From: Selenomonadaceae bacterium
Lineage (GTDB): Bacteria; Bacillota; Negativicutes; Selenomonadales; Selenomonadaceae
Reading direction: 5' to 3'
DNA length: 64,000 nucleotides
Assembly: GCA_030523645.1 (NCBI GenBank)
Contig: JAUNIB010000001.1
Location: 620,001 to 684,000, forward strand
A model generated the notes under the pieces. The model ran no database searches. It saw only the letters and a program-made list of their open reading frames with translations, and was not told the origin of the DNA. The position numbers were made by a program, and so were the translations under genes. Shown here in pieces: positions 14,737-25,997 of the stretch. Numbering within the stretch: position 1 is the first letter of the stretch; every line of letters begins with the position of its first letter.

Positions 14737-15534
14737 TCACAGCATCGCTACTGCCTTGGTGAAAGCATCTACTGACATATTGGCTCGCTTTGCTGCGTCT
14801 GCTAAAGTCAGAATACCATCCTTAACCAAGGAGTTCAACGTTTTCATCATTCCTTGAGCCATACCTTTATCCATAGCAGCCTTTTCTCTTCTATTGATTT
14901 CCATTTCCAATGTCATATACTCTCGCCTCCATTCATCACGGTTCTTCGCCGTCACTACTTCACTGTCGATTTCTTGTACCAGCTCATCATCGGTAATCTT
15001 CCCATCAATATAGTCAAGGAAATCCTGCAGTGGCTTATCTACATCGTTTTCTGTCCCCTTCGTACTCAGAAACAGCTTCGCTGTTCCATCATCCAGTTTG
15101 ATATCGAAATTTTCCTCACAAAACTCTCTGAATGTGTACTTGTGGAGCTTACCATCAAAAACCGGAAAGCTGCAGATGAAAATGATATAGGTATCATTCA
15201 GCGCACTGTAGCTTTGTCCCTTTTCTAAGAGGTCAATATCAATCATGGCCTGATAGTATCTGATACGCTTAGTCAGCTCGTCTACACTTCCGGTAGTCTG
15301 CATTTCAAGATTGAACACAGTACCTTTTTCATCATTGACATACACATCGAGACGAACACCCTTACTGTCAATCCGAACAGTTATTGCTTTTTCTTCTTCC
15401 GGATATTTGATGTCAGCAACTTCTATTCCTAGCAGTCTTTCGATAGTCTTTTTACAAATGCGCTTATTGCGCATCACCTTCTGGAATATGAAGTTGTCTT
15501 GTATTGTCAGTTCTTCGTATGGCTTTATCGGCAT
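14737..15534 (-). CDS. Rpn family PD-(D/E)XK nuclease / putative transposase
   Basis: This 265-aa protein belongs to the Rpn (recombination-promoting nuclease, PD-(D/E)XK, once called transposase_31) family. The N-terminal part has QDNFIFQKVMRNKRICKKTIERLL and the nuclease signature RLDVYVNDEKGTVFNLEMQ: the D in LDVYV and the E-x-Q in LEMQ form the core. A C-terminal region rich in Glu, Met and Lys ends with a short helix often seen in these proteins. An upstream ATG at 15555 falls at the -10 box of a good promoter (TTGTTT, 16 bases, TATACT at 15561-15556), so I start at 15534, after GGTGG. In E. coli such proteins raise recombination; the role here is unknown. It opens an accessory stretch that ends with the CRISPR locus. 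Confidence 0.85.
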   Translation of the reverse strand: MPIKPYEELTIQDNFIFQKVMRNKRICKKTIERLLGIEVADIKYPEEEKAITVRIDSKGVRLDVYVNDEKGTVFNLEMQTTGSVDELTKRIRYYQAMIDIDLLEKGQSYSALNDTYIIFICSFPVFDGKLHKYTFREFCEENFDIKLDDGTAKLFLSTKGTENDVDKPLQDFLDYIDGKITDDELVQEIDSEVVTAKNRDEWRREYMTLEMEINRREKAAMDKGMAQGMMKTLNSLVKDGILTLADAAKRANMSVDAFTKAVAML

Positions 15535-15555
15535 GATTACCACCACCCTATACAT

Positions 15556-15621: not shown

Positions 15622-16467
15622 TCATTTTCTGCTCAGGTCTTCCCCATCCTCCATCATTGTACCAACTGTTTCATATACACAATACAGTGGCTCTGCTATA
15701 TGCTGAAGATCAAGAAAATGCCAGTAATACGCCTCTGCGATTGCCGTCTCCATAGGAATTTTGGGATTCCAAAAGTGCGTCAATACTGCTCTAGAGAAAA
15801 GATTCGACGGACCATAATCCATAAACAGAGACAGTTCATAAATGGGAATACTTTGCATTTCTGCAATCTCCGGCTTTAACCATCCCATGTGCGGTTCCCC
15901 CTTTTCCATTCTCTGCGCGTGTTTTTCAATACATCTATCTAAAAAACTTTCCGCCCAATCCTTTGTGCATTCAATTTCCCTAAACATGATTGAATCAATA
16001 ATTCTCTCACGCCAACTCATTGCATCGTATTCCTCAGGCGTCGGTCTAACCCTATTCGGATTAACTCTGCCATATTCTTCCAAATAGCTTCTATCCACCT
16101 TCCTGAGACAATAAGCCTTTGCTTTTTCCGTTTTTGGCGAATATGGAAAAAGGTCAACATATAGGCGATGTAATGACTCCGCACATTCAGGAGCATACTT
16201 TGCTACCAGTCTCTCCCTTTCCACTTTATCATTTGTTTCCATAAGCAAATCATAGAATTTGTCTCCAACCGGCTCAGAGTACAAAAGCATATCATGTATT
16301 CCCACTTTTGTTGCATACGGATAGAGACGGCAAACACATTCAAAGACCTCTCGCATATCTTCTTTTGTCATTTCTTCTTGTCTCATTGTTAACGCCTTAG
16401 CATTATACAACCTATCTATATACTCCATTTGTTCTTTTGCAATAATCTCTTCTGGCTTTAATGTCAT
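15622..16467 (-). CDS. Protein of unknown function
   Basis: I do not recognise this 281-aa protein. It is soluble, with no membrane segment or signal peptide, and is rich in Glu, Arg, Tyr and Met. It has several Cys residues but no clear metal motif. Helix-rich composition and segments such as EEYDAMSWRERIIDSIMF and LTHFWNPKIPMETAIAEAYY suggest an alpha-helical fold. Of two nearby ATG codons, the one at 16467 has an AGGAG nine bases before it, while for the one at 16476 the AGGAG touches the start codon, so 16467 is chosen. It sits between an Rpn-type nuclease and a helix-turn-helix protein next to a CRISPR locus. That suggests accessory or defence DNA but does not prove a function. Confidence 0.7.
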   Translation of the reverse strand: MTLKPEEIIAKEQMEYIDRLYNAKALTMRQEEMTKEDMREVFECVCRLYPYATKVGIHDMLLYSEPVGDKFYDLLMETNDKVERERLVAKYAPECAESLHRLYVDLFPYSPKTEKAKAYCLRKVDRSYLEEYGRVNPNRVRPTPEEYDAMSWRERIIDSIMFREIECTKDWAESFLDRCIEKHAQRMEKGEPHMGWLKPEIAEMQSIPIYELSLFMDYGPSNLFSRAVLTHFWNPKIPMETAIAEAYYWHFLDLQHIAEPLYCVYETVGTMMEDGEDLSRK

Positions 16468-16594
16468 TGAATCCATCTCCTATATACCATGCAAATTTAA
16501 TAAGAATTAAGGGAAAATACTTCTGAAAGATAACACATCTCCTATCAGGTGTGTATTTACATTCACCTGCTGCAAATAATATAGCAAATAAAAA

Positions 16595-16646: not shown

Positions 16647-17408
16647 TTAGAATAGAATCGGCAATCCGAAATGCTCCAGGGCGTCATTTACCATAAAGAT
16701 ATCGTATATCTCATTTTCTATAAAAAAATATACTATAAGCTCTTCCTTTTTAACCGGATTGAAGGTATAGCCCCCTCTAGCCATCAGATCACAGGCTTCG
16801 TCAATGTTAAGTCTCATAGCCACAGTCAAAGCCATTACCGTTTTCTTCGTGGGCTGGTAGTCTTTATCATTGCGTATCTTCGAAAAAAGCTGTCGGCTGA
16901 TATTAGCCCGATTGTAAACATCGCTATCCTTAAATCCCTTTTGGTCAATCAACCTCAACAGATATTGTGAAAAGGTTTCATGTACCTCTTCCAGCAGCTC
17001 CTCTATCCGGCGTTTTTTCCATTCTTCATTCAGATATACACGGTGAATCTCTTCCCGTTCTGCTTCTCTACGCTCTGCTTTTTTGCGCGCCGCTTCTTCA
17101 CGAGCCGCCCTATCTCTAGCACTTTCATTGCTTCGAAACTTCTTTAAGCTCTTTTTTGCTTTCGCGGCAACAGTTATTCCTTTTTTCTTGTATAGGTCAG
17201 ATTTATACTCTTCCAGATATACGCTAAGCTTTCCTATCTTATCAAGATAGCACCGGTATATATATTCTTCGTGCCGTTCTTTCTCGCTTAGCTCTCCCCA
17301 ATGAATCTCATCTAAGTCAGTAACATCGGTATAATCCTCAAGGACATTGAACAACTCCTGCAGTTCTTCCAATCGCTCCTGGCTATCGTTGCTGATTTCA
17401 TTATCCAT
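16647..17408 (-). CDS. Coiled-coil protein with C-terminal helix-turn-helix domain
   Basis: This is a 253-aa protein with two parts. The first half is very acidic, then turns into a highly charged Arg/Glu/Ala helix (RDRAAREEAARKKAERREAE, about residues 100-125) that should form a coiled coil. The second half reads SQYLLRLIDQKGFKDSDVYN then ANISRQLFSKIRNDKDYQPT and is followed by MALTVAMRLNIDEACDLMAR, a helix-turn-helix of the Cro/C1 type. It ends with an ENEIYDIFMVNDALEHFG tail. From memory, this C-terminal module occurs on many Bacillota proteins with varied N-terminal parts; I cannot confirm a family name. A GTG at 17417 is the alternative start. It is 88 bases after csm6 and has its own terminator. 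Its partner and target are unknown. Confidence 0.7.
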   Translation of the reverse strand: MDNEISNDSQERLEELQELFNVLEDYTDVTDLDEIHWGELSEKERHEEYIYRCYLDKIGKLSVYLEEYKSDLYKKKGITVAAKAKKSLKKFRSNESARDRAAREEAARKKAERREAEREEIHRVYLNEEWKKRRIEELLEEVHETFSQYLLRLIDQKGFKDSDVYNRANISRQLFSKIRNDKDYQPTKKTVMALTVAMRLNIDEACDLMARGGYTFNPVKKEELIVYFFIENEIYDIFMVNDALEHFGLPILF

Positions 17409-17505
17409 ACAATCCACACCCTAATTCTGCTCTTATCTGAGTTCACATTTTGATAAATGAACCAATTCCTGCAGGATTTATCTTATCCATACATGACTTA
17501 GAAAA

Positions 17506-18819
17506 TCACTTTCTCACAGAAAGCCCCTCGCGAATCAGCTCATTTATCTTATCGTACATATTCCGGCACTTGCCGAATTTTTCACCCATTACCAGACTGC
17601 CCAGCTTTGCCAGCTTGTCGATAAATTCTCCGTGACTCATTCCCAGCTTTGCCCGGAAATCATCAGGTGTAATGTTCTTTATCGTATGAGCAGAATCATT
17701 CCTAAGCTCTCTCAGTGAACTCATAGCATTAACGAAATCGACAACACCGCTGCCAACCTCATTATCCTTTGCTAAAGACTCCTCATTTATGTACCTGCAC
17801 ATCACACACAGATTTGCAAAGGACAGCTCGCTATCCCTGAAGTCACCATAAAACTCATAATCAAGACTTCTCACCAGACCGGGATAAGCAGCCTCAATTT
17901 TCGTCCTCACCAGCCTATTTCTTTCAAGGCAATCGAATAGCCGGAAGCTCGTCCCCTTCAAGATATATCTTCTCAGCAGCTCAACGATGAAGTTGTTGCT
18001 CTTCACGAGGATATCCGACAGGTGCTTCTTGCCGGAGTCCAGCTGCAGCTTGAGAAAATACTCGAAAAGCTCCTGCTCCTTCTCATCTTTGAAGGGAATC
18101 AGTTTTACTCCATTATATTGTGACAGCTCCTGCTCAGCCTTCTCCGTGTTCAGCTGCTCTCTGAGCATGGCATGGTGCAAGAGCTTTTTTACATCCTTCG
18201 GCACATTGACGCTGCTCTTTGCCAGTGCATAGGCCCCGGCATACTCGTATCGCTCTACCAGTGATATTATCTGATGCTTCTCGCTGTAGTACCTGATGAC
18301 CTGCAGAGGCGGCTCGATGCAGCGATTTTCCGCTCCAGCTTCATCATCGAGATTGTTGGCTATTATCGCCTCGATATCATCATCTGCCTGCACCGGACGG
18401 CTGGCACTGTTTGACCCGCGGTTGGGCGACTCCACCTGCACGCCCCTCAGCCCATCCTCTACCGCCACTATAGCCATGACAGTCTTTATCTGCGGTGTAC
18501 CGGAGCTGAGATTCAGAATAAGCTCCGTGCTATCGTTCTCATAGGAACGGATTGCATCAGGCAGTACCTCAATAAATTCATCATAGATATGAGCGGCCTC
18601 TATTCCGGAGTCGATGACTTCTATCTCTACATCAGGAGCCACATGCTTTATCGCCCTAGTATAGCAGTGATTCTTTTCCTCCCGATGAAGCATTTCCTCT
18701 GTAAAGAACAGGACGACCTTCTCCGGATGATAATGCCGGATTATATGCAGACAAGCCCCATCATAGCAATCCCGTATAGGGTCAGTATTGCCGATAGGCG
18801 AAAATAAGACTCGTGTCAT
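17506..18819 (-). CDS. csm6: Csm6: CARF-HEPN ancillary ribonuclease of type III CRISPR
   Basis: Csm6 (437 aa) is a stand-alone RNase switched on by cyclic oligoadenylate made by Cas10. The N-terminal CARF domain starts MTRVLFSPIGNTDPIRD and contains the ligand-binding loop LNLSSGTPQ (SSGTPQ at residues 105-110). The C-terminal HEPN domain has the catalytic R-x4-H motif, RNDSAH at 373-378. Both active sites are therefore intact. A linker with Asp/Glu-rich sequence (residues 145-165) joins the domains. It is separated from the other csm genes by the CRISPR array, which ends 26 bases before its start codon, so it could be transcribed with the array. Confidence 0.95.
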   Translation of the reverse strand: MTRVLFSPIGNTDPIRDCYDGACLHIIRHYHPEKVVLFFTEEMLHREEKNHCYTRAIKHVAPDVEIEVIDSGIEAAHIYDEFIEVLPDAIRSYENDSTELILNLSSGTPQIKTVMAIVAVEDGLRGVQVESPNRGSNSASRPVQADDDIEAIIANNLDDEAGAENRCIEPPLQVIRYYSEKHQIISLVERYEYAGAYALAKSSVNVPKDVKKLLHHAMLREQLNTEKAEQELSQYNGVKLIPFKDEKEQELFEYFLKLQLDSGKKHLSDILVKSNNFIVELLRRYILKGTSFRLFDCLERNRLVRTKIEAAYPGLVRSLDYEFYGDFRDSELSFANLCVMCRYINEESLAKDNEVGSGVVDFVNAMSSLRELRNDSAHTIKNITPDDFRAKLGMSHGEFIDKLAKLGSLVMGEKFGKCRNMYDKINELIREGLSVRK

Positions 18820-18845
18820 CTATATATTCTCCTTTCAAGAGATTC

Positions 18846-19180
18846 TATTCCGTCCCCTTACGGGGATTTTATTTTTTAATATGTGCGTATGGGTAACTTC
18901 TTTAAGACAGAAGAAGAAGCAAAGTTTCCGTCCCCTTACGGGGATTTTATTTTTTAATACTGGAAGAAGAATTTACCATCAAGGAAGACGATTGGGGGTT
19001 TCCGTCCCCTTACGGGGATTTTATTTTTAATGAAAATGAAAAAGGAGAACTAACAATGAGCATGAACATCGTGTTTCCGTCCCCTTACGGGGATTTTATT
19101 TTTTAATGGCAGGGAAATGAACATCAGAGAGACCTTAATGGATGTGTTTCCGTCCCCTTACGGGGATTTTATTTTTTAAT
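18846..19180 (-). CRISPR. CRISPR array: five repeats, four spacers
   Basis: Five repeats of 35 bases lie at 18846-18880, 18924-18958, 18998-19031, 19073-19107 and 19146-19180. Spacers are 43, 39, 41 and 38 bases. Each repeat holds a TCCCC-TTAC-GGGGA hairpin. Read on the minus strand the repeat ends in GGGGACGGAAAC, giving an ACGGAAAC 5' handle like other type III systems, and the array then runs in the same direction as the cas genes. In this orientation the repeat at 18846-18880 is the last one: its 3' end is degenerate (GGAATA instead of GGAAAC), as is usual for the leader-distal repeat. The repeat at 18998 is one T shorter. The leader should lie in 19181-19317, next to cas6. Confidence 0.97.
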
Positions 19181-19317
19181 CCTGTCTGTGCAGTGCCCTG
19201 AAAATAGACACTGTAACAGCAGGCTTGCGGCGGGGAATTATTTTCCTACACATTCCCGACTTAATTTGCCAGGTCGATAGCCCATGAGCCTTACGGCTGC
19301 ATGGTGCGGCGCGGATT
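19181..19317 (-). promoter_or_regulatory. Probable CRISPR leader between cas6 and the array
   Basis: These 137 bases separate the cas6 stop codon from the first repeat in the direction of transcription. They hold no gene. By position and array polarity this is the leader. A GGAAAATAATTCC-like AT-rich stretch near 19236-19250 is the only part that resembles a promoter, and I could not find a clear -35/-10 pair, so the array may also be expressed by readthrough from cas6. Confidence 0.5.
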
Positions 19318-20079
19318 TCATCTCATAGTGCTGCGGACAGCCCCCATACCAAGAGCGGTCTTTATTCCAATGCCGGTATATGGTGCCAGCTTCACGAGGA
19401 GAGCCGCCAGCCTCCGGCTCATGTCGTTGCCCTGCAGCCGCACAGACATTTCTCCGGCGAAGCCGTATATAGTCTGCGACTCCAGTGAGAATGGCTGAGA
19501 GCTGAGCCGATAGCGATACATATTTGATGTGTCTGCCAGGAATGAGGCTAGTTCTCTGTCCTCCAGCTTGTTTGATGGAGAGAATGCGTTCCATTTCATC
19601 TGGAGGCTGCCGTATAGCATCCGCAGGTCGGGAAATACCATGTAGGAGCCGTCATGCTTGAAGCTGCCGGTGGTAAGAAATCTCAAAGAGAACTCTCTTG
19701 GGCTATTGTCAGCCAAGAATACCTCATCAGCCAATCGTCCATAATCAGCTCTGTCATCGGCTGCCAGCTTCACCAGCTCGATGTCATAACCCTTCTGCTG
19801 CAGAAAAATTGATTTCCCCAACGAATTCAGCAGCGGCTCAACCACCCGTTCCTCCGCCTGCTTGGTAAGTGTACACACTCTCCATATCGGCAGGCTTCGT
19901 TCCTTGTCCCAGAAGACACTCTGGCTGTAGGGACGCAGGGTACTGAAGTCGTGGAGCCAGTCAGCTGTCTCCCTATCCACGATGTCACACATCAGGGCTC
20001 CGTGCATGACAGAACCCATTGATGAGTGGAGCTTCGTCCCCTCCGGGAGTTTCAGCTCTATGTCTACACTTCTCAGCAT
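19318..20079 (-). CDS. cas6: Cas6: CRISPR pre-crRNA endoribonuclease
   Basis: Cas6 (253 aa) cuts the repeat RNA to release crRNAs with an 8-nt 5' handle. The C terminus has the family's glycine-rich loop, KLAPYTGIGIKTALGMGAVR. The N-terminal part carries MLRSVDIELKLPEG followed by HSSMGSVMHGALM, which supplies histidines near position 18-26 that are common for the catalytic site. The listed frame could open at 20103, but the ATG at 20079 overlaps the csm5 stop in TGATG and begins the conserved first strand, so it is preferred. It is the last gene before the array, which it is expected to process. Confidence 0.93.
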   Translation of the reverse strand: MLRSVDIELKLPEGTKLHSSMGSVMHGALMCDIVDRETADWLHDFSTLRPYSQSVFWDKERSLPIWRVCTLTKQAEERVVEPLLNSLGKSIFLQQKGYDIELVKLAADDRADYGRLADEVFLADNSPREFSLRFLTTGSFKHDGSYMVFPDLRMLYGSLQMKWNAFSPSNKLEDRELASFLADTSNMYRYRLSSQPFSLESQTIYGFAGEMSVRLQGNDMSRRLAALLVKLAPYTGIGIKTALGMGAVRSTMR

Positions 20080-21281
20080 CAATCTGCCTCCCGTATGCTG
20101 CACAGTCCCATGAGCTGCAGTCCGCTGCCGGATTCTACCAGCTTCAGGGTACGAGGAGATATTTCCCTATCGAGGTCTCTATGGTGGTGCTTCTTGCAGG
20201 CAATCTCCAGATAGTCCCGCAGCAGTCTCATGGCTTCTTCCCGGTCATCAAAGAGGAACATCCAAAGGCTGGTATGGTGGAATCCGGTACCGCCACCCAG
20301 TATGAAGTCTGCCGTCTCTGCTTCCTTGAACTGACGGCTGTAATCACGACCGAAGACAGGCTGCTGGATAGCAACAGTCTCTCTAAGGTACTCCCGGGCA
20401 GAGGCCATTATTTCGTCTAATGAGCCTATACCCATCTCCGCCATCATCCTTTTGTCCATGGTCACAGTGAGACTATACTCGGTATCAGGCGCAAGGCACT
20501 CACAGCATATTGGCATACCGCCCAGCTGAATTTCTCCGTTTCGTTCCTTCAGTGTGCTGGCGTCCCTTCGGACGGCAACTACCGATGATGCTTTTTCCGT
20601 AGGCATAGCATCACTCACCAGCAGTCCCTTTAGGGAGCTTTTGGCCGCTCCGCTGCCTGTATAAGCCAGTGTATTGACTTCGTTTTCCAGAGTCTTTGCC
20701 ACATTCTCCAAGGCTCTTTTGACATCTTTTTTCAGTCTTTTCCGCTCTTTTTGCTGCTGAGTCTTTGCCACATTCTCCAAGGCTCTTTTGACATCTGCAG
20801 CCAGCCGTCTTCTAAGGTCAGGATGTTCCTTCAGATATTTGTACAGGATTCCCGTCCGGAGCATACCTTTGACGGAGCTGCCGGGTATATACAGGCGGCC
20901 GTCTGCCAGCGTTATGCCTTTTTGCAGGTCGTTGAGGGTGTCCTTTTTCTTTTCGTCATACATCACAGACCGGGGGGCGGCCACTACACGGCTGGCTCTT
21001 GACTTGATTTCCTCCCAGCTTATTTTCCTGTCCGTCAGCCATTTCGGTATGTTCATGGAGGTGAGCTTGCCGGGTCTGCCGACGAACTCAATAAATTCCT
21101 CCATGAGTCCGCGACTGCTGAGAAGGTCTATCCACTGTGGTTTGTCGAGAAAGTATATTATCCCCTTGTTTTTGTTGTATATGTAGTCCCACTGCTTCAG
21201 CACTTCGCCGCTGCCTATGTAGACCGGGGAAATGCAGGTTATTACATATTGCTTTGCTTCAAGATAGTCATGTGTTTTCAT
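20079..21281 (-). CDS. csm5: Csm5: type III-A Csm complex subunit (RAMP, Cas7-like)
   Basis: Csm5 (400 aa) caps the 3' end of the crRNA in the Csm complex and takes part in crRNA maturation. The N terminus YVITCISPVYIGSGEVLKQ and the later LYIPGSSVKGMLRTGILYK are the typical RAMP motifs, with the glycine-rich loop GSSVKGMLRT. Near residues 160-200 the 12-residue block DVKRALENVAKT occurs twice, 23 residues apart. The DNA is identical over 37 bases in the two copies, so the duplication is recent or maintained. The start overlaps the csm4 stop (ATGA) and the stop overlaps the cas6 start. Confidence 0.95.
   Translation of the reverse strand: MKTHDYLEAKQYVITCISPVYIGSGEVLKQWDYIYNKNKGIIYFLDKPQWIDLLSSRGLMEEFIEFVGRPGKLTSMNIPKWLTDRKISWEEIKSRASRVVAAPRSVMYDEKKKDTLNDLQKGITLADGRLYIPGSSVKGMLRTGILYKYLKEHPDLRRRLAADVKRALENVAKTQQQKERKRLKKDVKRALENVAKTLENEVNTLAYTGSGAAKSSLKGLLVSDAMPTEKASSVVAVRRDASTLKERNGEIQLGGMPICCECLAPDTEYSLTVTMDKRMMAEMGIGSLDEIMASAREYLRETVAIQQPVFGRDYSRQFKEAETADFILGGGTGFHHTSLWMFLFDDREEAMRLLRDYLEIACKKHHHRDLDREISPRTLKLVESGSGLQLMGLCSIREAD
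20691..20796 (-). repeat. In-frame 69-bp tandem duplication inside csm5
   Basis: A 37-base sequence at 20691-20727 occurs again, identical, at 20760-20796. The period is 69 bases, exactly 23 codons, so the frame is kept. The intervening 32 bases are Lys/Arg/Gln-rich coding DNA and only loosely resemble what follows the second copy. Confidence 0.9.
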
Positions 21282-22285
21282 AACCCGATATACATCCCCT
21301 TGCCATATCTCCAGATTGGGTGGTCATCATTTTCTCCGGACAGATCGAGAAGCCGGCCTTCCATTCTCTTCCGGAAGCAGGAGCCAGCGGCCACCATGTA
21401 TATGCTGTCATGCTTTTTGTTCTCAGAGAAGCCGCTGCGCTTTTTCAGCTGATACTGTCCGCCCTTTACTGCTTCGGCATCCTCCGGGCAGAGCACAGAT
21501 AGACACATCTGCCAGGGAGATTCTGTCCTGTCCAGCAGATTGATAATCATTTCTGTATCGTCAACCAAGAGATTGAGACGAGTTTCTGTATCGTTATCAT
21601 GCGGCAACAGCTCCATAATGTCGTCATGGAGGGTGAAGTGTCCATAGCCGGAGCTTCGTTTGCCGCCGATGCCGGAGTAGCCTAGAGATTCCATTATCCG
21701 TTGGAAGGTGTCTCTCCAGTCCTCCGGCAGCTTCGCTATGCCGTAGAGTCCTGTGTTCTCCGCAAAGGAGTATGTACGCACATAGTAGGGCATTGATTCT
21801 TCACCGCGAGTGTTCACCCGCTTCACCATAGTGTCAGTTCCGGCGTGCAGTGAAGACTCAGCCGTATACAGCTCCCCGGCTGCAACAGCCTCCATGAAGC
21901 TGCTGATTTCCAAAGCTCGGATATAGGCCTGTTTCTTCAGCAGTTTCTTGGCTGCCGATACTTGCCTTGCGTCCTGCATATCGGCAATCTGCCGCTCTTT
22001 GCCTCCGTCAAGCTGCAGAAAGGGTCTCGGCAGAAAGAGCTGGACATCCCTACCAATCACTTGATAGGGAAACAGGTCTGAAAAGCAAATCTCTCCCGAC
22101 TGAACATTTTCTGTCAGTCTGTCCAGCAGGTCATATCTGTCCTGCTGCACCAGCTCAACGCATACAGCGCTGAACAGGATATCGGCAGAAATGGTCGGTG
22201 CTATCTGCTCCAGCTTGCCCCCCATGGCTGCATCTCCGAAGTGTACCGGGGTGCTGAAGCTAAGCTGATATAGATAATAGCTCAT
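21278..22285 (-). CDS. csm4: Csm4: type III-A Csm complex subunit (Cas5-like)
   Basis: Csm4 (335 aa) is the Cas5-like RAMP that binds the 5' handle of the crRNA and contacts Cas10. The start MSYYLYQLSFSTPVHFGD is the usual Csm4 opening, followed by PTISADILFSAVCVEL. A glycine-rich loop GYSGIGGKRSSGYGHF is present near residue 205-220, and a final basic region ends in WRYGKGMYIGL, the conserved C-terminal signature. It starts 11 bases after csm3 and overlaps csm5 by 4 bases. Confidence 0.95.
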   Translation of the reverse strand: MSYYLYQLSFSTPVHFGDAAMGGKLEQIAPTISADILFSAVCVELVQQDRYDLLDRLTENVQSGEICFSDLFPYQVIGRDVQLFLPRPFLQLDGGKERQIADMQDARQVSAAKKLLKKQAYIRALEISSFMEAVAAGELYTAESSLHAGTDTMVKRVNTRGEESMPYYVRTYSFAENTGLYGIAKLPEDWRDTFQRIMESLGYSGIGGKRSSGYGHFTLHDDIMELLPHDNDTETRLNLLVDDTEMIINLLDRTESPWQMCLSVLCPEDAEAVKGGQYQLKKRSGFSENKKHDSIYMVAAGSCFRKRMEGRLLDLSGENDDHPIWRYGKGMYIGL

Positions 22286-22296
22286 AATAATATCCC

Positions 22297-23004
22297 TTAA
22301 ATCTCATCAAAAATCTGCTGGGCGTCTCCTGATATAATATCCCATTCTTCCTGTGCCTTACCGGAAATGCTGAAGAAGTCTATAGAGAAATCTCTGAAGG
22401 ATACCCGTCCATAGCCACGGGAGCCATGACCTCCGATATAGTCAAGCTGCAGCAGTCTGATACCGTCGGCCAGGAGCTTCAGGTCTTCGGTAACTTCATC
22501 TTCCTTTTCGATGTTGTAGATGACTGTGAAATCAAACTCGGCACCGGCAGGAACTCGCTCTATCTGACGAACATCGGCAACGGCAGGCAGTCTATTTATG
22601 GTGTTCTCCCATTTAATCTCGCCTATGTAGGTATCGGTGTCCAGCTTGTCAAGACGGCTGAGGCTCTCATCGGTGAGCTTGATGTCGCTGAACTGAAGGC
22701 GGGAGGCAGAGAGTCTCTGCTTTTCACTGGTGCCGAAGAGTCGCTGGATTTCTTCTTTATCTTCCTTTATGTCGTTTAGCACATAGCCTTCACTGAAGCT
22801 GCGGGCAAGGAGTGTCCTAATCTTGCCCTTCAGGGAGCTTCCCGGGATAATCGGCTGCTTGGTGACAACATCGCGGATGAAAGGTCTGTCTACTGCACCG
22901 ATAGGGGCGAAGTCGGAGGAGCTGCCAATGTGCATACCGGTCTCCAGCTTCAAAATTCCCTTTATGATGAGCTTGCCCTTGAGGGCTTTAATTCCCTTTT
23001 CCAT
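22297..23004 (-). CDS. csm3: Csm3: type III-A backbone subunit and target-RNA nuclease
   Basis: Csm3 (235 aa) forms the repeated Cas7-like backbone and cuts target RNA every 6 nt. The N-terminal part LKLETGMHIGSSSDFAPIGA is followed at once by VD; this aspartate (D39) aligns with the catalytic D33 of the Streptococcus thermophilus protein. The RAMP loop PIIPGSSLKGKIRTLLA and the C-terminal LDYIGGHGSRGYGRVSF glycine loop are intact. So target RNA cleavage should be functional. Its start codon overlaps the csm2 stop by one base (TAATG). Confidence 0.97.
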   Translation of the reverse strand: MEKGIKALKGKLIIKGILKLETGMHIGSSSDFAPIGAVDRPFIRDVVTKQPIIPGSSLKGKIRTLLARSFSEGYVLNDIKEDKEEIQRLFGTSEKQRLSASRLQFSDIKLTDESLSRLDKLDTDTYIGEIKWENTINRLPAVADVRQIERVPAGAEFDFTVIYNIEKEDEVTEDLKLLADGIRLLQLDYIGGHGSRGYGRVSFRDFSIDFFSISGKAQEEWDIISGDAQQIFDEI

Positions 23005-23498
23005 TAGTCCTTACCTCCGTAGAATTTATGATATGCCACCAGTGCTTCCATGTAGCGGGCAAATTCCTCGTATTTGCGGATGTCTTTGCCGATTGACTTA
23101 ATCATGTCTATTAGTCCAGCTCTTTTAACAAAATCATCGACTCCGCATTGTTTCTTCTTCTGTTTATCCCTGCCGCACTGATATACTAAGAGAACCTGTA
23201 GGTATCTAATTTCATCAGCAAGAGCATTGTTAAGTTCCGTGCTGCCGCTGGTGGCCTTGAATACAGACACTTTATTTGATGCAGAATTCACAGCAGCGAG
23301 AATTTTTCTAATTTGATTTGTTTTCAGCAGAAATCCGCCATCTTCTTGTTCATCTTTTGGCAGGTCTTTTATCACCGCTTCAGCACGGCTGATTATATCC
23401 ATGTCCTTATACTTTGAGGGGTCGATTACATCCCTCGGAGCATAATTGCTTCTGCTGTTGTTGCAGCCCTTACTGCCGTTTTTGTATTTGTATTCCAT
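23004..23498 (-). CDS. csm2: Csm2: type III-A small subunit
   Basis: Csm2 (164 aa) is the small helical subunit that lines the crRNA-target duplex. It has the expected size and the conserved helical C terminus FARYMEALVAYHKFYGG. The N-terminal 25 residues are Asn/Ser/Lys-rich and probably disordered. The open frame could begin with GTG at 23507, but ATG at 23498 has GAGGTG six bases before it, so it is chosen. It follows cas10 closely and overlaps csm3 by one base. Confidence 0.93.
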   Translation of the reverse strand: MEYKYKNGSKGCNNSRSNYAPRDVIDPSKYKDMDIISRAEAVIKDLPKDEQEDGGFLLKTNQIRKILAAVNSASNKVSVFKATSGSTELNNALADEIRYLQVLLVYQCGRDKQKKKQCGVDDFVKRAGLIDMIKSIGKDIRKYEEFARYMEALVAYHKFYGGKD

Positions 23499-23513
23499 AC
23501 GAAACACCTCTGC

Positions 23514-25997
23514 TTATCTCAGTTTGTATATCAGCAGCTCGATTGCGGTGGCAAGCTGCTTCCTGTCTTCCGGGGTCTGATACCATTTGTAAAATTCTTT
23601 CCGGACTTCCTGATAGGCTTTGTACCTTTCCTCATCCTTTGGAGATGGCTCCATTCTGGCAATGGTGTAAGCAAAGCGAGCCAGATTTGTCCGCTCATTG
23701 TCAGCTTCCCTTATCAGGTACAGCAGTCGGTAGAGCGCCCCTTTACCCAGTGTCAGCTTATCCCGGGCAGCTCCGTCCACGCTGATGTATTTCTGCAGGA
23801 AAGCCAGTTTCGAGCCGACTACAGCGTTTTCAAATTCATCCCATCCGTAGCTCGTCATTTCCAGCGCCGTGTCCTTTTGCTGCTCCGTGTTCATGCCAAA
23901 TAGGGTAACGCTGTTTTTCGCCGGATTTTTCTTGGCGTAGTCCTCCATTTCTCCGGTTACTCTTGCCATTTCCGAGATGGGGCATTTGTCCGGGAATAGT
24001 CCGATACCGGCGGAGAAGGTCAGCTTGCCGTTGGTGTAACTGCTGAAGGCGTGCCTGATGTCTATCGCCAGCTCAATAAGCTCGTCCCATGCGCCGACGA
24101 TGAACATATCGTCGCCGCCGGAGTATATGATGTGTACCTTACGAGGCTTGTCTTTGTTCTTTCCATCCTGATAGAGATAGAATTTCTCTTTGCCGTTTTC
24201 GCCGATGCCGTTGATTTCTCCGCTGCACAGGCTATTGATATATCTCTTGAAGAATAGTGACAGCTGTCTTGACAGGGCGGTGCTGCGTCCCATTGTGGCG
24301 TATCGGTTGTTGTTAGCTCTGTCGGCAAAACCGGCCATGAATGCCGCACCGAGGTTGTCAACATCGGCACGCATTACACCAAGCCTCTTGATGCCGTGTT
24401 CTTCGCCGCCGGAGGCTCTGGCCAGCTCTTCAAACTCTGCCGTCCCGTTTCCTCCGACGGTGACATAATCACCCATCCAAAGTCTGGTAGCCACGAGGTT
24501 GCCGGTGAGCATTTTATTTTTGATATAAACCCGCTGAGCATTGGCACAGAGAGTTTCTGCCTTACTCTCGGGGATGACGCTGAGGTAGTGAGTCTCCGAT
24601 ATTCCCGGAAGGGCTATGTCGTTGTCATTTTTCTCTGCGAAAACAGCCAGAACATCGTTTTTCAGCAGCTTCTCTCCGAAGTCCCGCAGGCTGCGGCAAT
24701 TTTCACACACCTCGGTTTCGCTGTCATCGTCGCTGTATCGCACCAAAGTTCTGGCCGAGGAATGACAAATACCGCATTCACGGTATCCGTCAAGAGTTCT
24801 GTTCACCCTGCTCTTGGGGTCGAAGAGCAATTCAAGCTGCGCTTTACTGTATCTTGCCCGCTTGTCCTTGGCTACCTCGCTGCTGGCATTCCGGTATATG
24901 CGGCCTATGCCGTTGGTACTGTCAGCCTTGAAGTCGTTGGCAGAGCAGGCAGCCCAGCCGATTGCCAGATAGAGTCGTCCATCAAAGTGAGTCAGCAACC
25001 AATCGTTTATCTTTTCCCTAGCTTCTGTCAGCAGATGCTTTGACTTCTCCGTGTTCGGCAGCAGAAGATAGAAGTTACCGCCGCCGGTGTAGAGAAGATT
25101 GCAGCGACTCAGCTCCAACCTGTCGAGAATTTCGTCAACAAGGTTTTCCAGCATCAGCTCCAAATAGAACGAGCGTCCCCGGAGACTCTTCAATGCGCCT
25201 TTGGAAGGAATAGTGTATATGAAGCTCTGTATGCCGGAGAGGTCGCCGGAGACAAGAAGGTATGTGTCGGCTGCTCTAATCTGTTCCAGCTTGTCGCCAA
25301 AGCAATGACTGCGATAGTCAGAGACACCCTGCTCCTCAAAGTAGTCATACATACAAGCGGCTATTGCGGCCGTCAGCTTTTCATGGTCGTACAGAGATAT
25401 ATCCGCGATTTCATTCTTTGCTGTGCTGGACGGTACATAGCTGCCGGTGGCTTCTACTATCTGCAGCAGAGAATTAATGGCTGTGTTATCAACTGTTTTC
25501 TTGCGAAAATTTACTGTCATGTAGTCCAACAGCTTTTGATACTCGGCTGATGGTGCACTTATCCCTGTCGTCACGGGGTACTGCATCCGCACATTGTCCT
25601 CCATCAGTCCTCGCAGGTAGAAGGAGGATTTCGGAGCAGCTGTATTTCCGGCAAACACATTGAATATATTTTCCAGTGCCTTACCTGAGTCAAACCCAGC
25701 CGGGCTGTCATCCCGCTTGCGCCGGTCTGTACTGGAGGCAATATTATCTGCTTCATAAACAATGTAGCTGATGTCATCATCACTGCCGTTCAGCTTTTTG
25801 AGCATTGCCCAGTGATGATTCAACACGGCTCTAAGAATATCACCGCCGTCCTTCAGGAATGGCTTAAGATACTCTGCTCCGGCATGAGAATGGTCAATAT
25901 TGCCGGGATTGGCACGAATGACGATTTTCCCCACATCATGCAGCAATGCTGCAATCTGCAGGTCATATTTCTTCTTATCCAATCTAATCACATCCAT
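23514..25997 (-). CDS. cas10: Cas10/Csm1: large subunit, HD nuclease and cyclic-oligoadenylate synthase
   Basis: Cas10 (827 aa) is the signature subunit of type III-A. The HD nuclease motif LLHDVGK has H20-D21, for DNA cleavage. The palm polymerase that makes cyclic oligoadenylate has SGGDD at residues 626-630, with the supporting ADVDNLG at 544-550. A zinc ribbon lies between (C408-x2-C411 and C431-x2-C434). The N-terminal palm-like domain carries GDLSGIQSFIY. All key residues are present, so both activities should work. The start has no strong ribosome binding site. It is the first gene of the cas10-csm2-csm3-csm4-csm5-cas6 operon; a 1.1-kb gene-poor stretch lies upstream. Confidence 0.97.
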   Translation of the reverse strand: MDVIRLDKKKYDLQIAALLHDVGKIVIRANPGNIDHSHAGAEYLKPFLKDGGDILRAVLNHHWAMLKKLNGSDDDISYIVYEADNIASSTDRRKRDDSPAGFDSGKALENIFNVFAGNTAAPKSSFYLRGLMEDNVRMQYPVTTGISAPSAEYQKLLDYMTVNFRKKTVDNTAINSLLQIVEATGSYVPSSTAKNEIADISLYDHEKLTAAIAACMYDYFEEQGVSDYRSHCFGDKLEQIRAADTYLLVSGDLSGIQSFIYTIPSKGALKSLRGRSFYLELMLENLVDEILDRLELSRCNLLYTGGGNFYLLLPNTEKSKHLLTEAREKINDWLLTHFDGRLYLAIGWAACSANDFKADSTNGIGRIYRNASSEVAKDKRARYSKAQLELLFDPKSRVNRTLDGYRECGICHSSARTLVRYSDDDSETEVCENCRSLRDFGEKLLKNDVLAVFAEKNDNDIALPGISETHYLSVIPESKAETLCANAQRVYIKNKMLTGNLVATRLWMGDYVTVGGNGTAEFEELARASGGEEHGIKRLGVMRADVDNLGAAFMAGFADRANNNRYATMGRSTALSRQLSLFFKRYINSLCSGEINGIGENGKEKFYLYQDGKNKDKPRKVHIIYSGGDDMFIVGAWDELIELAIDIRHAFSSYTNGKLTFSAGIGLFPDKCPISEMARVTGEMEDYAKKNPAKNSVTLFGMNTEQQKDTALEMTSYGWDEFENAVVGSKLAFLQKYISVDGAARDKLTLGKGALYRLLYLIREADNERTNLARFAYTIARMEPSPKDEERYKAYQEVRKEFYKWYQTPEDRKQLATAIELLIYKLR

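Follow-up and report, generated by a model that had tools for sequence, protein, structure and literature searches.

The type III-A locus and its gene content

The window analyzed here, a stretch of 64,000 nucleotides from a Selenomonadaceae bacterium, contains a type III-A (Csm) CRISPR-Cas locus on its minus strand, with a gene set that looks complete in profile searches:

17506..18819, minus strand: csm6, encoding a CARF and HEPN RNase (TIGR02672, 380 bits)
18846..19180, minus strand: CRISPR array, five repeats of 35 nt (crRNA sense ATTAAAAAATAAAATCCCCGTAAGGGGACGGAAAC) and four spacers
19181..19270, minus strand: leader; CGCCGCAAR (-53 relative to the first repeat) and GACAGG (junction) are both conserved in related III-A arrays
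19318..20103, minus strand: cas6 (PF10040, E 9e-15; TIGR01877, 57.0 against a cut-off of 58.65)
20079..21281, minus strand: csm5 (TIGR01899)
21278..22285, minus strand: csm4 (TIGR01903)
22297..23004, minus strand: csm3 (TIGR02582), catalytic Asp kept
23004..23507, minus strand: csm2 (TIGR01870/PF03750)
23514..25997, minus strand: cas10/csm1 (TIGR02578, 734 bits), HD and palm GGDD (YSGGDD)

The assignment to subtype III-A rests on cas10/csm1 and csm2 to csm5, which form one operon and score above the cut-offs of TIGR02578, TIGR01870, TIGR02582, TIGR01903, and TIGR01899. Csm3 D39 aligns with the wild-type catalytic Asp (IGAVDRP here and IGAVDSP in the wild-type Csm3 structures; one solved Csm3 variant has Ala at this position), and alignment showed that the GGDD motif of Cas10 is kept. 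The Cas10 HD motif (LLHDVGK) and the Csm6 HEPN motif (RNDSAH, an RX4H within the RX4-6H range expected for III-A) were read from the sequence. Within csm5, an exact 38-nt direct duplication (20690-20727 and 20759-20796, 69 nt apart) is in frame and repeats the segment DVKRALENVAKT. The neighbors of csm6 encode an HTH_26 protein (16647-17417), an unassigned protein of 284 aa (15622-16476), and an Rpn/PDDEXK_2 transposase-like protein (14737-15555).

The III-A locus lacks cas1 and cas2, and tblastn of the window found no Cas1 remnant. An adaptation module of its own is common in III-A but not obligatory, so this absence is not a defining failure. Because the locus lacks these genes, the four-spacer array may be a relic. 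In several relatives, cas1 adjoins csm1 in the III-A locus. The highest-scoring Csm1 of the family search lies in a III-A locus of another genome (contig C43) where cas1 is broken into fragments, one with a stop codon, which suggests repeated loss of the adaptation module. The source genome also carries an I-F-like locus (C13:42000-60000; an array with cas1, cas3, and csy-like genes) and an I-E-like locus (C14:236000-254000; cas1, cas3, and cascade-like genes), with both subtypes named by eye from gene content and repeats rather than by a typing tool. Its two Cas1 genes sit in these two loci. Three CRISPR types therefore appear to coexist in this genome, and III-A alone is without cas1-cas2.

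Orientation of the array and content of its spacers

The array had been read in the first-pass annotation as transcribed on the minus strand, and several features bear this out. On that strand, the repeat ends in GGGGACGGAAAC, leaving the 8-nt handle ACGGAAAC; such an ending is the usual type III 5' handle. In 22 of 31 related arrays (the window array included), the leader motif precedes the first repeat by exactly 53 nt, and in no array does it lie on the distal side. The leftmost copy of the repeat (18846) is the degenerate one, as a leader-distal end predicts; the third repeat is 34 nt long, with one T missing, and the array's repeat occurs nowhere else in the source genome. These data support a leader at the right side of the array and crRNAs that come from the minus strand, transcription itself being predicted. 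Handle, leader motif, and degenerate repeat together place the newest spacer (S4) next to the leader and the oldest (S1) at the far end:

18881..18923, plus strand target-sense: S1, oldest, 43 nt; frame 3 reads VRMGNFFKTEEEA
18959..18997, plus strand target-sense: S2, 39 nt; frame 2 reads LEEEFTIKEDDW
19032..19072, plus strand target-sense: S3, 41 nt (GAAAATGAAAAAGGAGAACTAACAATGAGCATGAACATCGT); operon junction with KMKKEN-stop, AAAGGAG, N8, and ATG AGC ATG AAC ATC
19108..19145, plus strand target-sense: S4, newest and leader-proximal, 38 nt; frame 1 reads GREMNIRETLMD

Read on the plus strand, every repeat of the array (18846-19180) resembles an intrinsic terminator, with a hairpin followed by a T-run. 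Nine terminator-like sites were counted in 17300-20300 against 2.2 expected, eight of them within repeats. A T-rich stretch 3' of the stem is common, though not universal, in related III-A repeats. These hairpins could act as a stop for antisense transcription through the array.

The earlier observation that all four spacers are open on the plus strand is correct, as is every reading quoted with it, including the ribosome binding site and start codon of S3 (AAAGGAG, 8 nt, ATG AGC ATG AAC ATC). Openness was nevertheless rejected as evidence for a sense orientation: same-composition shuffles of each spacer are open in some plus-strand frame with a probability of 0.69-0.85, and on the minus strand, too, each of the real spacers has an open frame. 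The coding-like content of the spacers, unlike openness alone, exceeds chance. Codon models were built from host genes, low-GC host genes, or viral genes (training sets being mechanical ORF calls rather than curated genes). All four spacers scored as sense under every model; P(sense) was 0.82-1.0 for S4 and did not fall below 0.98 for S1-S3. Mean purine content of the four is 0.688, and an SD+ATG arrangement arises in 0.8% of S3 shuffles.

Spacers drawn from either strand, four of which happen to look coding, would also produce open frames, and with four spacers in a single orientation the strand preference reaches only a one-sided p of 0.06. The codon-model scores (0.98-1.0 for S1-S3) speak against such a coincidence, as do the empty controls for the S1 motif described below and the class-wide bias, which makes a sense orientation the prior. 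Chance is accordingly an improbable source of the sense reading.

Searches for protospacers and related proteins

Blastn of each spacer against phages returned no protospacer (best E 0.05, chance level), and the same search against plasmids returned none either (best E 0.04). Across 189 genomes of the family, with up to 3 mismatches over cores of 32-34 nt, the only match was the window array itself. Degenerate protein and DNA patterns covering nearly the full length of S1-S4 had no match in the viral contigs, nor did degenerate patterns in the genome contigs. A BLAST comparison of 433 related III-A spacers (described below) with the collected loci gave the window's own array as the sole match. 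As no protospacer was found for S1-S4, we infer their phage origin and target genes from content; the targets are probably phage mRNAs.

Frame 3 of S1 contains GNFFKTEEEA, and the degenerate pattern GNxFKTEEEA matches 15 viral contigs. All 15 matches are in frame inside open reading frames and in a similar context, for example IGNCFKTEEEAEFALEK, with 3 of 15 identical over the stretch shown. Neither permuted codons nor the antisense reading of S1 gave any match in the viral contigs. The matches outline a phage or prophage protein family with GN[CYV]FKTEEEA. The stretches of S1-like proteins tested had no Pfam or PHROGs family, tblastn in phages gave none, and a looser S1 motif searched in genomes found only the window array. 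For S2, FTIKEDDW has one match in the viral contigs, in a prohead protease; the residues that precede it differ, so the prohead protease gene is no more than a weak lead to a putative S2 target.

Strand bias across related III-A arrays

Since open frames are uninformative, related III-A arrays were gathered for a better test. Csm1 was searched for in 189 genomes of the family and 300 of the class (the sets overlap), and the arrays within 20-kb stretches around the matches were collected, yielding 433 distinct spacers from 32 arrays of the window's repeat class. Family arrays of types I-C (778 spacers) and I-F (273 spacers), mostly located via Cas1, served as controls. The window contributes 4 of the 433 spacers in the purine and SD+ATG counts and is excluded from the codon-model and shuffle-z class tallies (429 spacers). 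A script placed the array boundaries and may have missed true spacer ends by a base; S3 is without its first base in the purine measurement and in the class purine and SD+ATG counts.

In the III-A set, purines are in excess on the strand that pairs with the crRNA (298:117, p 2.6e-19), and 30 of 32 arrays follow this direction, whereas I-C arrays have no purine excess (332:396) and I-F arrays none that is significant (137:112). Codon models scored 69-74% of III-A spacers as sense (n=429), compared with 49-51% for I-C and 52-54% for I-F; corrected for held-out accuracy, the III-A sense share is 79-92%. With composition-matched shuffles as the reference, the coding likelihood of III-A spacers had a z of 14.5 in the sense and 3.9 in the antisense direction, while the two directions are about equal in I-C (10.4 and 9.0) and I-F (7.0 and 6.6). 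Judged by spacer content, relatives' DNA-targeting arrays (I-C and I-F) thus lack the coding-strand bias. The purine bias, codon models, shuffle scores, and the S1 motif with its controls support the proposal of the first-pass annotation that the crRNAs would be antisense to mRNA.

A bias of this kind might reflect the way spacers are acquired. RT-Cas1 systems exist and offer a precedent for sense spacers that derive from RNA rather than from selection, and the strength of the bias would fit such a route. Type III spacer acquisition from RNA has been described (PMC5576922). Four related III-A Cas1 proteins, on the other hand, have a Cas1 domain and no reverse transcriptase within the part that was matched, and both Cas1 genes of the source genome belong to the I-F and I-E type loci. 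We regard RNA-derived acquisition as very unlikely here. Vink et al. report that type III arrays of this kind mostly rely on adaptation modules borrowed from type I systems (PMC8482600), and in Thermus the coding-strand bias of type III spacers arises from selection (PMC7515739, Artamonova et al. 2020). Given this precedent and the four Cas1 proteins without an RT domain, the bias probably stems from selection after acquisition.

A spacer over a translation start

S3 had also raised the idea that a crRNA over a start site could block ribosome binding without cleavage. SD+ATG arrangements in the 433 III-A spacers fall 16 times on the target strand and 2 times on the crRNA strand (p 0.0013), which provides a further strand marker; an earlier, smaller set (11 versus 1 in 211 spacers) had seemed stronger. 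Counted per possible placement on either strand, start sites number 18 against 13.6 expected from DNA-targeting and unassigned arrays (p 0.21), and with GC matching 17 against 11.9 (p 0.20). An enrichment of start sites in III-A spacers was therefore rejected after correction for length and GC, and 13% of arrays with four spacers would be expected to contain a start-site spacer. It is improbable that III-A spacers of the class are moderately enriched for translation starts, through accessible transcripts or added protection from blocked initiation, with S3 as an example.

Because start sites are as frequent as random sampling would give, no separate ribosome-blocking mode is needed. The idea that S3 keeps ribosomes off its target by antisense pairing alone, with no cleavage, in a mode of translational repression under selection, could draw on its AAAGGAG-N8-ATG and on the 16-to-2 split between strands, but the start-site rate is no higher than in other arrays and Csm3 retains its catalytic Asp. 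We consider that mode highly unlikely.

Interpretation and comparison with known systems

Collectively, these results very probably describe an ordinary III-A locus in which minus-strand crRNAs pair with sense transcripts of invader genes and S3 lies on a translation start by chance. The array would be transcribed from the right-side leader along the minus strand, and Cas6 would cut the transcript to leave the 5' handle ACGGAAAC. Once in the Csm complex, a crRNA would pair with an invader gene's sense transcript, upon which Csm3 would cut the RNA and Cas10 would cut ssDNA and make cyclic oligoadenylate, activating the Csm6 RNase. As the active-site motifs of Csm3, Cas10, and Csm6 are present, cleavage and signaling upon binding of a complementary transcript are the default reading, with the biochemistry predicted from those motifs. 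The start-site counts indicate that random sampling of the coding strand is enough to yield spacers such as S3.

The locus resembles the III-A (Csm) systems of Streptococcus thermophilus and Staphylococcus epidermidis in its cas10-csm2-3-4-5, cas6, and csm6 genes, its 8-nt type III handle, and its catalytic motifs, and differs from systems of that kind in lacking cas1-cas2. Its array has only 4 spacers; related arrays range from 4 to 39 repeats. The preference of type III spacers for the coding strand is already published (PMC8482600, Vink et al. 2021; PMC7515739). Unlike in those studies, the bias was seen here in a single bacterial class and with no protospacers to go by, only the content of the spacers. 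Such content can reveal the strand logic of an RNA-targeting array for which no protospacer is known, with relatives' I-C and I-F arrays serving as controls. As in the published bias (PMC8482600, PMC7515739), the type III spacers would be complementary to mRNA, and the I-C and I-F arrays of this group are unbiased.
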